A stretch of DNA of 64,000 nt from Fimbriimonas sp. (lineage in GTDB: Bacteria; Armatimonadota; Fimbriimonadia; Fimbriimonadales; Fimbriimonadaceae), in NCBI GenBank assembly GCA_031292555.1, contig JARLGV010000022.1, forward strand, positions 62,001 to 126,000, read 5' to 3'. Shown one piece after another: positions 19,607-23,644 of the stretch. A model generated the notes under the pieces. The model had not been told where the DNA came from, did not search any database, and saw only the letters and a program-made list of their open reading frames with translations. Both the position numbers and the translations under genes were made by a program. Numbering within the stretch: position 1 is the first letter of the stretch; every line of letters starts with the position of its first letter.

Positions 19607-20050
19607 ATGCGCGCGATTGTTCAACGAGTGAGTTCGGCATCGGTCGTCGATAAATCGGATGGCTCAGTGGCGTCTATCGGCCCAGGATTCCTGCTTCTTG
19701 TAGGCGTCCATCGAGAGGATTCCGAAGCCCAAGCGAAGAAGCTCGCCGAGAAGATCGCCAACCTTCGAATCTTCAACGATGAAAACGGCAAGATGAACAT
19801 CGCTCTTCAAGATATGGAAGCGCACGACGTCCTTGCCGTGTCGAACTTCACAGTATACGGAGATACTCGCAAGAGTCGCCGTCCCAGCTTTGTTGAGAGT
19901 GCTTCATTCGACCACGGCAGAGCGATCTTCGACAACTTTGTGGAATCGCTGCGGACCTACGGCTTTCGTGTGCCAACTGGCGTCTTTGGCGCCGACATGG
20001 CGGTAACTTTGGTGAACGAAGGGCCTGTCACGTTGATCGTCGACGTCTGA
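19607..20050 (+). CDS. dtd: D-aminoacyl-tRNA deacylase Dtd
   Basis: Dtd hydrolyses D-amino acids mischarged onto tRNA. The 147-residue protein begins MRAIVQRVSSASV, the standard start. It carries SNFTVYGDTRKSRRPSF, a variant of the family's S-Q-F-T-x-Y-G-D block with Asn for Gln. The C-terminal GVFGADMAVTLVNEGPVT contains the N-x-G-P-x-T motif that forms the chiral-proofreading pocket. It follows ftsA by only 4 nt and is probably the last gene of the dcw transcript. A D-amino-acid proofreading gene next to a pathway using D-Ala and D-Glu is suggestive, but it may be chance. It converges on moaA with a 3-nt gap. Confidence 0.93.
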   Translation: MRAIVQRVSSASVVDKSDGSVASIGPGFLLLVGVHREDSEAQAKKLAEKIANLRIFNDENGKMNIALQDMEAHDVLAVSNFTVYGDTRKSRRPSFVESASFDHGRAIFDNFVESLRTYGFRVPTGVFGADMAVTLVNEGPVTLIVDV

Positions 20051-20053
20051 ACT

Positions 20054-21130
20054 CTAGCCACCGATTTGGCTCATGCCCCTGCCAAGCACCTTTTGTCCCT
20101 CCGCAAGGTAGTGCCGTTCCGGTTTGTGGGCCACGACGTGGGCCAGGAGAGCGGCCAAGTCGGAGTCGGAAGCCCCCGCTCGCATCGGAGTGCGAAAATC
20201 CAACTCGCCATCGGACATCAAACAAGGGCGAATGAACCCGTCGGCGGTCAAGCGGAGCCGGTTGCACTTCTCGCAAAGGTCCTTGGAGATCTGACTGATA
20301 AAGCCAATGGTCCCCAAAGCGCCGGCCAACTTGTAAGTACGTGCGGGACCGTTTGTCGTCAGTTCGGCCGGGGCCATCGGTCCATGGACGGCTTCTATAC
20401 TCGCTCTTAACTCTTCAGCCGAAACAAACATCCGACGCATCTGGAGGTCGCTTAGCATCGTTCCATTTGTGGCTTGACGGAGTTGAAGCAGCTCGGAACC
20501 TTGGTGGACGGAGAGCGGATCGAATCCGTCCGTTTCATCCAGGTTCCAGCGGATCGGCATGATCTCGATGAAACGGAAGTGAATTTCCTCTCGAAGCGTC
20601 CATTCAGCAAAGTCTGCTGCTTCGTCGTCGTTCAGCCCTTTCATGGCGACGCAGTTGATCTTGATGGGATTGAGGCCGGCAGCCTTGGCCGCTTCGATAC
20701 CGGCGAGCACGCGGTCAAGGTCTCCCCTGCGCGCCAATTCCCTGAAGCGATCGTGGCGAAGCGTATCCAGACTGATGTTGACCCGTGTCAATCCTGCATC
20801 GGCAAGGGGCTTTGCGAGATCGTTGAGCAGAAAACCGTTGGTCGTAAGGCTCAGATCGCGAATACCAGGAATCGAGCCGACACCGGCTACGATCGAGACC
20901 AGGTCCTTTCGAACGAGGGGCTCTCCTCCCGTCAAGCGAACTTTTGTGATGCCGCAATCCACCGCGATCCGGACGAGCCTCACGATCTCTTCGGCAGTGA
21001 GAAGCTCTTCGGACGGAGCTACCGGAAAGCCGTTCTCTGGCATGCAGTAGACGCACCTGAAGTTGCATCGGTCGGTTACTGACACCCTCAAGTAGTCGAT
21101 TGTCCTGTCAAATGGGTCGATGAGTGGCAT
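20054..21130 (-). CDS. moaA: GTP 3',8-cyclase MoaA (molybdenum cofactor synthesis)
   Basis: MoaA is a radical-SAM enzyme that converts GTP to 3',8-cyclo-H2GTP in the first step of molybdopterin synthesis. The 358-residue protein has the radical-SAM cluster motif CNFRCVYC (Cys22, 26, 29) after RVSVTDR. TGGEPLVRKDL follows, and a second cluster site lies in LCEKCNRLRLTADGFIRPCL. The conserved Gly-Gly C-terminus (IGG) is present. No other moa or moe genes lie nearby. The gene is divergent from the sigma factor operon at 21254 and convergent with dtd. Confidence 0.95.
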   Translation of the reverse strand: MPLIDPFDRTIDYLRVSVTDRCNFRCVYCMPENGFPVAPSEELLTAEEIVRLVRIAVDCGITKVRLTGGEPLVRKDLVSIVAGVGSIPGIRDLSLTTNGFLLNDLAKPLADAGLTRVNISLDTLRHDRFRELARRGDLDRVLAGIEAAKAAGLNPIKINCVAMKGLNDDEAADFAEWTLREEIHFRFIEIMPIRWNLDETDGFDPLSVHQGSELLQLRQATNGTMLSDLQMRRMFVSAEELRASIEAVHGPMAPAELTTNGPARTYKLAGALGTIGFISQISKDLCEKCNRLRLTADGFIRPCLMSDGELDFRTPMRAGASDSDLAALLAHVVAHKPERHYLAEGQKVLGRGMSQIGG

Positions 21131-21172: not shown

Positions 21173-21253
21173 TTACTTCTGAGTGCGCCGAGAAACGATG
21201 TTCGAAATTAAACGTCACTTTTACAGAGTGTACGCAATGAAGGGACCGATCTC

Positions 21254-21877
21254 GTGGTAGAAAGCAGAGTTATGGGATACGATGCGTCCCTAAGCGGACG
21301 CATGGAACTGGACACGGACGGTGCGCTAGTTAAGCGAGCGCGTGACGGCGACTATAGTGCTTTTGAGAAGCTCTTCGATCGCCACCGCACGCTCGTCTAC
21401 CGGTTTGCCTACCAGATGACGTCTCGACGGGACGATGCCGAAGATATCGTCCAAGAGGCGTTCGTTCGCGCCTATCAGAATCTGCACCGATACCGGGATG
21501 AGGCCAAGTTCACGACGTGGCTTCTGAGGATCGTCACAAATCTTTGCACAGACCAGGCTCGTATGAGCCAGCGACGTTCGGCACTCGAGCAGCAGGAAGC
21601 TGCCGGAGCACTTGATTGGATGACCTCGGGCGAGACCGAGGACCCAGTTCACAACCTTGAGGCAGATCGGCGGAGTCGGGCACTGAAGAAGGCGCTCAAC
21701 GCCTTGCCGGCGCATCACAAGGCAGTAATCGTATTGAGGGACATCGAGGAAAGGGAATACCCCGATATGGCGGCAATATTGGGCTGTACGGTCGGGGGAG
21801 CAAAGCTCCGCGTACTTCGAGCGCGAAGGGCGCTCAAAGAAAGAATTGCCCCGCTGTTAGGGGAGGAACGGACATGA
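21254..21877 (+). CDS. ECF-type RNA polymerase sigma factor
   Basis: This is a 207-residue sigma-70 family protein of the extracytoplasmic-function group. Region 2 spans about 30-100 with AFEKLFDRHRTLVYRFAYQM, the DAEDIVQEAFVRAYQNLHRY block and FTTWLLRIVTNLC. Region 4 spans about 145-200 with LPAHHKAVIVLRDIEEREYPDMAAILG and GAKLRVLRARRALKE (helix-turn-helix). It should direct transcription of a stress or envelope regulon. The GTG at 21254 is taken as start; ATG codons at 21272 and 21302 are alternatives. The stop overlaps the ATG of the anti-sigma gene, so the two are co-expressed. Confidence 0.92.
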   Translation: MVESRVMGYDASLSGRMELDTDGALVKRARDGDYSAFEKLFDRHRTLVYRFAYQMTSRRDDAEDIVQEAFVRAYQNLHRYRDEAKFTTWLLRIVTNLCTDQARMSQRRSALEQQEAAGALDWMTSGETEDPVHNLEADRRSRALKKALNALPAHHKAVIVLRDIEEREYPDMAAILGCTVGGAKLRVLRARRALKERIAPLLGEERT

Positions 21878-22638
21878 AGGCGAAGTTTGAAGAGAAGCTG
21901 GCCCAACTGGCGTTCGGTGACTTGTCCCCGAGCGACGCAAAGAAGTTGGAGATCGAGGCCCAGAGCCAGCAGGAGGCCCGCGAGACGCTGCGGCTATACC
22001 GGGAGATGCGCGATGGGTTACGCGGCATGGCCGAGGTTCCTGAGGATCAATTCTCAAAAGAGAGGCTGCGAGACGCCATCCTCAAACAAGGTCTCAAACC
22101 CAGACCGGATCGATATGCTTCCAATCGCTCTTGGCTTTGGATGCCCGCCGTCGCCTGTGCACTCGGATTTGGCCTTGTCTATGCTCGACACACGATTCTG
22201 CCGAAGAACGTGAATCCTCAGATTGTAATGAGCAAGAAGTCGCTTATGGCCCCGCCGCTCCTTGCCGTGCATGAGCCGATTCGCGTGGCAGACAACACCC
22301 CTTCCCCTGCGAACAGCTTTATTGGCCCGATTCAGAGCCCCCTTCGGAAGACAAGGACATTCGGGTATCGACATCGCCCGCGACATCACCTGGAGCCAAA
22401 CGAAGTGTCGCCCAATATCCTCGCCGTCAAGCTGGATGGAGACGATCTCAATCCGGACTTTGGTGGAGCCAATTCGACTATTCCAACGTCGCCAAGTGCA
22501 TCGGACGTGCCTCCGATGGTAGCGACGGCAGCCAGCACAGGCCCGATCGTTTTCATCGATCAGGACAAGGACGAGCAGACCGGCGCTCAAAAAGCCACGG
22601 AGGTTGGCAACGCAAGCAATGTACTGGTTGGCGGCTAG
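21874..22638 (+). CDS. Putative membrane-bound anti-sigma factor
   Basis: This 254-residue protein begins with a helical, charged domain (about 1-75) in the position of an anti-sigma domain. KLAQLAFGDLSPSDAKKLE and a run of helices resemble the zinc-finger anti-sigma fold, but the zinc-binding His/Cys motif is absent. One membrane helix follows at about 86-104. A long Pro/Ser/Asn-rich exported region without recognisable domain completes the protein. The ATG overlaps the sigma factor stop (ATGA), the classic arrangement for a sigma/anti-sigma pair. The function is inferred from operon position and topology. Its 3' end overlaps the next gene by about 20 nt. Confidence 0.7.
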   Translation: MKAKFEEKLAQLAFGDLSPSDAKKLEIEAQSQQEARETLRLYREMRDGLRGMAEVPEDQFSKERLRDAILKQGLKPRPDRYASNRSWLWMPAVACALGFGLVYARHTILPKNVNPQIVMSKKSLMAPPLLAVHEPIRVADNTPSPANSFIGPIQSPLRKTRTFGYRHRPRHHLEPNEVSPNILAVKLDGDDLNPDFGGANSTIPTSPSASDVPPMVATAASTGPIVFIDQDKDEQTGAQKATEVGNASNVLVGG

Positions 22639-23644
22639 ACTAGCAATCGCTCTGATGGTCGGTACTGTCCAGGCAGACAGGCTGTCGCCTCGCGAAAAGG
22701 CGGTTTGGAATCAGGTCAAGCCTTCCGTCGTGACGCTGTTCGAAAACGATCGACCATGCGGCGTGGCGGCTCTGATCGACGATTCCGGCTATTTTGTGGC
22801 TCACAGCAGCGGCGTCTCGAGTGCAGTGCCGGCTGGCAAGTCGTTCGGGGGGAAGGAAGTTTCCTTTTCCGTCGTTTCGCGCGATCCTTTGACCCAGTTA
22901 GTTCTGCTTAAGGCGACAGACTGGGTAAGTGGGACAGCCAAGCCCTTCCGAATCCCTAACGAAGAGGAAACCGACGGAGGGGTCATTCTTGCCGTGCTCC
23001 CAACGGGACCGATTCGCGCTGCCTATGTATCCAAACATCAGCCGGGCGTGCTTAAGCCGTCACGTCGCTTGGTCACCCTTACGGAAATTCGGTTCGAAGC
23101 ACCGACGCAGGCAGTAGGCGGAGCATTGATTCTTTCCGAGTCGGGAGAGTTGATAGGCACGCTAAATGCGACGTTGGATCGCCCAGAGGGCCTGACTCAG
23201 AATCAGACTATGAATCAGAACTCGCTTGGGCAGAACCAGACTGCCCGAGGACCTTCGATTCGGATCCAGAATCAGATTCTGAATGCGGGACCCGGCGAAA
23301 TGACGGTCGCGTATGCAGTCGGCCCCGAAGTCGTGCAGCACACTCTTCAGGGCTTCCTGTCTTCCAAGCACGAAGCCGAATATGCGATGCTAGGTATCTT
23401 TTGCACGAATGCGATCGGTGGAGGAGCCTACATCCAAAGCGTTTCGCCCAACTCCCCCGCTCAAAAGGCCGGCCTTCGACCAGGCGATATTCTGCTAAGC
23501 ATCGGCTACAACCAGATCGCGGATCAGGTTGCCTTCGCAACCGTCATGCTTCAACAGAAGGTGGGTAAGAAGATTACGCTGATGATCAAGCGAGGCAGGG
23601 GCAGCCTGCTTATAGATGCCGTCCCGTCGAAGTCGACTGAATGA
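22619..23644 (+). CDS. Exported HtrA-like protein with PDZ domain; catalytic serine missing
   Basis: The 341-residue protein has a signal peptide (MYWLAARLAIALMVGTVQA). A trypsin-like region follows at about 25-190, then an Asn/Gln-rich linker near 192-220, then a PDZ domain at about 255-335 (VSPNSPAQKAGLRPGDILLSIG). In active HtrA proteases the serine sits in G-N-S-G-G; here the matching site reads TQAVGGAL, with Val in place of Ser (about residue 166). The fold is likely kept but not peptidase activity, so it may sense or bind envelope ligands. I chose the ATG at 22619; an in-frame TTG at 22604 would abut GGAGG with no spacing. It is the third gene of the sigma/anti-sigma operon. Confidence 0.72.
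   Translation: MYWLAARLAIALMVGTVQADRLSPREKAVWNQVKPSVVTLFENDRPCGVAALIDDSGYFVAHSSGVSSAVPAGKSFGGKEVSFSVVSRDPLTQLVLLKATDWVSGTAKPFRIPNEEETDGGVILAVLPTGPIRAAYVSKHQPGVLKPSRRLVTLTEIRFEAPTQAVGGALILSESGELIGTLNATLDRPEGLTQNQTMNQNSLGQNQTARGPSIRIQNQILNAGPGEMTVAYAVGPEVVQHTLQGFLSSKHEAEYAMLGIFCTNAIGGGAYIQSVSPNSPAQKAGLRPGDILLSIGYNQIADQVAFATVMLQQKVGKKITLMIKRGRGSLLIDAVPSKSTE

Follow-up and report, generated by a model that had tools for sequence, protein, structure and literature searches.

An HtrA-like PDZ protein without its catalytic triad in a sigma/anti-sigma operon of Fimbriimonadaceae-type Armatimonadota

Three overlapping genes at positions 21254-23644 (+ strand) of the window, i.e. the 64,000-nucleotide stretch of Fimbriimonas sp. 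DNA analyzed here, encode an ECF sigma factor, a predicted membrane anti-sigma factor and an HtrA-like PDZ protein. The locus resembles the RpoE-RseA-RseB-DegS system of E. coli and the AlgU-MucA-MucB-AlgW system of P. aeruginosa, which comprise an ECF sigma factor, a single-pass anti-sigma factor and an adjacent gene for an exported partner. In these systems, RseB and MucB bind RseA and MucA, thus holding off the site-1 protease (PMC8545111). An earlier, sequence-only reading of the window had noticed that the site matching GNSGG of active HtrA proteases reads QAVGG, and had concluded that the third protein should not be a serine protease. It had suggested instead a ligand sensor, or a protector which binds the exported tail of the anti-sigma factor. 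What, then, does a protease-like protein do beside an anti-sigma factor which it should not be able to cut?

Operon structure, promoter and distribution

The first gene (21254..21877, + strand, GTG start) encodes a sigma factor matching the Pfam models Sigma70_r2 (E 3.2e-21) and Sigma70_r4_2 (E 1e-10). Its score against the NCBIfam model TIGR02937 (sigma70-ECF) is 105 bits at a cut-off of 42.9, which assigns it to the ECF group. The context of its start is conserved among relatives, and the sigma factor of one of them (locus L037) is 90% identical to that of the window. The second gene (21874..22638, +), overlapping the first by 4 nt, encodes a predicted single-pass membrane anti-sigma factor. 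The third (22619..23644, +) encodes a protein of 341 residues with one PDZ domain, which according to AlphaFold, structural matches and Pfam is a putative exported HtrA-like pseudoprotease. Guided by the relatives, its start was corrected from TTG 22604 to ATG 22619; the genes of the anti-sigma factor and the PDZ protein thus overlap by 20 nt (22619..22638, +), and the start codon is found at exactly this place in 58 of 72 loci. For the groups f1 and f5, 77 loci were fetched from 84 matching genomes. In 73 of these loci the sigma gene lies upstream of the PDZ gene on the same strand; in the other four the contig ends first. The operon which had been deduced from the overlap of the three genes is real and goes beyond chance.

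Of 291 Armatimonadota genomes, 99 gave a match to the PDZ protein in a profile search at E 1e-25 (76 of f1, 8 of f5, 7 of f2 and 8 of f19); this cut-off misses several f2 members found otherwise. The named relatives belong to the Fimbriimonadaceae and to other Armatimonadota; judged by these sequences, Fimbriimonadaceae-type Armatimonadota carry the trio as a fixed cassette. Neither the PDZ gene nor a close sigma gene was found in three f1 genomes that are at least 90% complete (G010, G152 and G153), and this joint absence is as expected of one unit. G152 and G153, which belong to the same family and lack the cassette, are small (1.5 Mb). The locus is stable: in 32 of 39 loci, recJ is found on the opposite strand no more than 3 kb downstream. 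In 17 of the 39 loci, dtd directly precedes the sigma gene in the same orientation, and in six, the window (region 19607-21130) included, moaA intervenes between the two on the other strand.

At 21192..21216 (+), 38 nt before the start of the sigma gene, conservation predicts an ECF-type promoter, GAAACG-N15-CGTC, a motif that we take to be an ECF-type promoter consensus. GWAACG-N15-CGTC occurs upstream of the sigma gene in 13 of 18 chosen loci and with a spacing of 15 only (none at 11-14 or 16-20); mononucleotide shuffles of the same 18 upstream regions gave a mean of 0.008 matches. The predicted promoter is likely to be autoregulatory. A genome-wide search for the pattern gave 29 matches, compared to 40 for a reversed control pattern, and no regulon could be drawn from it; only the match before the sigma gene is supported, through its conservation.

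The lost catalytic triad of the PDZ protein

The AlphaFold model of the PDZ protein (mean pLDDT 79.5) matches HtrA structures along residues 23-341, with a Foldseek E-value of 1.5e-18. The best structural match is the HtrA protein Rv0983 (Z 24.5, rmsd 3.6, 269 residues), and Rv1223, the HtrA of the M. tuberculosis sigE-rseA-htrA locus, is among the best ones (Z ~24). The gene order of that locus is the same as in the window; unlike the window's protein, however, the HtrA encoded there is reported to be an essential serine protease, and sigE and rseA are reported not to be cotranscribed (PMC10027907). The profile of the PDZ-protein family finds DegP, DegQ and DegS. Pfam recognizes the PDZ domain (PDZ_2, E 1.2e-12); its Trypsin_2 model found no match in the window's protein and matched 7 of 17 aligned relatives. 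On the strength of the model, the protein belongs to the HtrA fold family, which combines a trypsin-like domain with a PDZ domain. A helix at residues 2-20 and its hydrophobicity predict an N-terminal signal peptide or membrane anchor (residues ~1-20; 22619..22678, +).

In the numbering from ATG, the alignment places S64 (22808..22810, +) at the catalytic His site, Q93 (22895..22897, +) at the Asp site and V166 (23114..23116, +) at the Ser site. The motifs flanking the first two sites align clearly, unlike the Ser column, which is ambiguous by one residue (V166 or the next glycine). QAVGG does align with GNSGG as stated before, but the loss extends beyond the serine to His and Asp, i.e. to the whole triad.

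This holds beyond the window. We aligned 95 relatives (77 of f1/f5, 14 of f2/f3 and 4 of f19; named loci duplicating sequences already present under a G handle were excluded from the counts). None of them has His in the catalytic column, where two rows show a gap (L180, a fragment at a contig end, and L282). Of the 95, 8 retain the Asp and 12 have a Ser no more than one column away from its site, in no case together with His. The loss is conserved in homologous operons, which had been named as a check, and a normal triad occurs in none of them. H, D and S are intact in nine of nine active HtrA controls, among them two, L181 and L182, from the window's genome. Because the triad is absent from the window and from every aligned relative, the PDZ protein cannot, by its sequence, be a normal serine protease, and the role of a DegS-type site-1 protease is unlikely for it. 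The loss is old, as judged from the same alignment. In f19, a group outside the order for which four loci were fetched from eight matched genomes, the dead HtrA (L283-L286) has kept the Ser, carries Asp instead of His and Asn instead of Asp, and may have lost its triad either in the same event as f1 and f2 or in a separate one.

The dead domain shows no decay. Four unsaturated close pairs gave dN/dS values of ~0.03 (L262/L263 and L049/L053), 0.004 (L269/L270) and 0.06 (L257/L258) for the protease-like region, similar to those of the PDZ domain; L252/L253 had not accumulated enough substitutions, and the remaining five pairs were at or near saturation. These values show strong purifying selection on the protease-like domain. 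Within the PDZ domain, the loop AMLGIF (residues 256-261; 23384..23401, +) has kept its glycine in 77 of 77 f1/f5 and 13 of 13 f2 proteins. In PDZ domains in general, a loop of this type binds the carboxylate of the ligand.

The anti-sigma factor and its exported C-terminus

The product of the second gene has no Pfam match and only a weak NCBIfam antisigma match (0.0026), and a profile search of the anti-sigma alignment against the PDB gave no match at E 1. Its prediction as a membrane anti-sigma factor is based on the following features: the gene directly follows that of the sigma factor, and the protein has N-terminal helices and one hydrophobic helix; sigma binding is predicted. In the AlphaFold model (mean pLDDT 62.8), helices span residues 3-14, 19-31, 33-53 and 62-72, the N-terminal ones being confident. 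Helix and hydrophobicity predict a transmembrane segment at residues 90-107 (22141..22194, +), from which the topology is deduced, and a long disordered stretch separates it from a weak C-terminal β-hairpin.

That the protein lacks a zinc motif had been claimed before and is correct for the window, where H-x3-C-x2-C, the ZAS criterion, is absent; some relatives do have it. The motif was found in 3 of 72 f1/f5 anti-sigma factors, in loci of the sister families f2 and f3 and in four f19 loci; the three f1/f5 cases are f5 members which combine it with a GG tail. Alignment by hhalign linked the f1 anti-sigma factors to the zinc-type ones of the same operon in f2/f3 (prob 88, E 3e-6, 57 columns), and because of this link a loss in f1 is the most likely reason for the missing motif. 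A cytoplasmic motif, VPECQLSxERLRxAIL, is conserved at residues ~55-70 (window 21874-22100); it resembles PVPACxLxW of zinc-type relatives and may be part of the sigma-binding site.

What the comparison adds to the previous interpretation is that the predicted exported C-terminus of the anti-sigma factor is conserved, in contrast to the linker that precedes it. The information per column was determined for 72 f1/f5 anti-sigma factors, i.e. the 77 loci minus L250 (no frame found) and L065, L068, L249 and L273 (contig ends, no sigma gene). It is ~0.8-1.8 bits in the linker (residues 111-220), 1.8-2.3 bits at residues 221-250 and 3.05 for the last four residues; over residues 223-254 it ranges from 1.75 to 3.05 bits. 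The conserved tail (residues 223-254; 22540..22635, +) consists of a hairpin, with strands 225-232 and 239-244 modeled at low confidence, followed by NVLVGG-COOH. The last residue is G in 65 of the 72, the second-last G in 67 and the third-last V, I, F or L in 70; 61 end with GG-COOH after three hydrophobic residues. Two anti-sigma factors from related genomes, L061 and L261, end with GGY and AGF, an aromatic end as in f2.

The end of the tail is encoded in the overlap with the PDZ gene. In f1/f5, the +1 frame reads L, S, W, F and Y where the anti-sigma factor keeps V, L, I or F, the third base of the Gly codons is nearly always C or T, as demanded by the +1 frame, and a Ser just after the stop occurs in 50 of 72 loci. 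Both frames are constrained, to judge from these patterns, the one of the anti-sigma factor more strictly; since both show some constraint, an RNA-level contribution to the conservation is possible. In f2, all 11 loci examined, from 10 genomes, end with S-F-COOH (L169 and L180, whose contigs begin or break off close to the gene, were excluded). This end is encoded by differing codons, and the +1 frame varies there (LFS, LFR, RSN, HSN or RFN). The codon patterns thus show conservation of the C-terminus at the protein level, the two frames being cleanly separated in f2. Elsewhere, the anti-sigma factor ends with FIDT in the single f3 locus and with VE (GAVE or GGVE) in four f19 loci.

Co-variation of tail and PDZ groove was considered and rejected, as the residue beside the loop glycine shows no correspondence to the tail in f1/f5. 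This residue is Trp in f2 (12 of 13, with a Phe tail) and mostly small in f1/f5 (with a Gly tail), which is one lineage-level difference and no test of co-variation.

Possible roles of the pseudoprotease and the paralogous operon

The kept PDZ loop, the dead but constrained domain, the conserved free tail and the tight linkage point to a contact between the products of genes 2 and 3. RseB and MucB hold the anti-sigma factor against the site-1 protease, and C-terminal peptides with aromatic ends open the HtrA proteases (WVF for AlgW, YYF for DegS; PMC8545111); for this reason we propose that the tail is held here. In the reading that we prefer, and to which we give an even chance, sigma factor and membrane anti-sigma factor form an autoregulated pair, and the HtrA pseudoprotease docks on the tail and gates the cleavage by another protease. 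We infer the docking and every later step. The tail, i.e. hydrophobic residues followed by GG-COOH or SF-COOH, would dock in the PDZ groove, and the complex would keep a site-1 protease, which may be one of the genome's two active HtrA proteins, away from the anti-sigma factor. Envelope proteins that are misfolded and present their C-termini, or some other ligand, would compete for this groove and expose the anti-sigma factor; the usual two-step cleavage, in which the M50 (RseP-like) protease takes part, would start and free the sigma factor. The role would then be that of RseB and MucB, on a fold like that of DegS and AlgW; the comparison concerns the role alone, as the partner is a dead HtrA fold and not the RseB lipid-binding fold. 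A role on the exported tail would fit its strong conservation, and the previous interpretation is, on the whole, partly supported. If true, an envelope-stress sigma pathway can replace its site-1 protease by a dead copy acting as receptor. No description of this cassette was found in the titles and abstracts listed by searches of the open-licence PMC literature.

We put forward more tentatively, at somewhat less than an even chance, that the operon is a self-ligand envelope sensor. The dead HtrA would hold the anti-sigma factor's own C-terminal PDZ ligand, GG-COOH in one branch and a DegS-activator-like SF-COOH in the sister branch, and competing misfolded ends would set the sigma activity. 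DegS and AlgW read the ends of OMPs or MucE, whereas here the anti-sigma factor itself carries the conserved end. An anti-sigma factor could then bring its own PDZ ligand, and the DegS logic "ligand switches protease on" would become "ligand displaces protector". Several points speak against tail docking: GG-COOH is atypical as the end of a PDZ ligand, the conserved tail could serve another partner, and no correspondence between loop residue and tail class is seen in f1/f5. A shared C-terminus is by itself no proof of PDZ docking, because the anti-sigma factors of active operons from four close relatives also share one (NF-x-PR).

Such an active operon exists in the window's genome as well. 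At L181 (G000:C88, 1865-5256, - strand), the same three-gene order is found, but the anti-sigma factor has H-x3-C-x2-C and a short tail unlike that of the window, a gap of ~380 nt precedes htrA, and the two-PDZ HtrA has H, D and S intact. Because this paralogous operon resides in the same genome, the cassette with the dead HtrA, on sequence grounds, adds a branch to the classical arrangement and does not take its place. Matches to the L181-type HtrA were found in 61 of 61 genomes searched, the triad being checked in a few. The genome also encodes an RseP-like M50 protease and an S41-type PDZ protease.

In the main rival reading, the pseudoprotease is the partner of an active HtrA, like MamO of MamE, and promotes cleavage by forming mixed oligomers or by delivering the anti-sigma factor or other clients. 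MamO has the HtrA fold, has lost its activity, is kept beside an active HtrA and has acquired a new, non-catalytic role; it promotes the proteolysis that depends on MamE, and inactive copies next to active ones have arisen more than once (PMC4794232). It differs from the window's protein in that it acts in biomineralisation, has replaced Ser by Thr while keeping His and Asp, binds metal and is not known to belong to a sigma operon. The L181-type matches in all genomes searched and the intact triads of the genome's own two active HtrA proteins are in line with such a helper, as is the arrangement in two f2 genomes, G059 and G060, where active and dead operons are adjacent on one strand (L186 and L180). 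The active genes are, however, mostly located elsewhere in the genome, this tandem order being limited to the two cases, and the mixed oligomers are hypothetical. We regard it as unlikely, at about half the weight of our preferred reading.

Still less probable is that the tail serves as a degradation signal for the PDZ domain of the true site-1 protease or of a tail-specific protease, while the pseudoprotease senses a ligand, metal, peptidoglycan or lipid. Candidates for the protease are encoded in the genome (both active HtrA proteins and the S41-type protease), and a dead HtrA can turn into a metal binder, as in MamO (PMC4794232); yet tail class and dead-HtrA cassette occur together, and the anti-sigma factor of the paralogous operon has a different, short tail. 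It is very improbable that the PDZ protein has remained a hydrolase by means of a rearranged nucleophile: f1 members commonly have a His two positions ahead of the His site (AHSSG), and Ser lies near its site in the 12 relatives mentioned, but no row combines His, Asp and Ser, and no replacement is consistent across the family.

With respect to the origin of the two operons, a quick sigma tree placed the sigma factors of dead operons (SH-aLRT 98) and of active operons (96) in separate clades; it covers 27 of 73 f1/f5 sigma factors and 20 of 64 outgroup rows, carries a long-branch warning and gives no relation between the two clades. Because the clades are separate, a duplication behind active and dead operons is likely, as far as this tree goes. 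A tandem duplication is suggested by the adjacency in G059 and G060 and, in view of this tree, is not claimed. The sister families look like ordered steps, from active HtrA with zinc anti-sigma factor via dead HtrA with zinc anti-sigma factor to dead HtrA with zinc-free, tailed anti-sigma factor. The transition from protease to regulator would therefore lend itself to direct tests, in a phylum whose signalling has hardly been studied. G059 carries, in addition, a second gene for a dead HtrA, whose anti-sigma factor ends with SF (L168).
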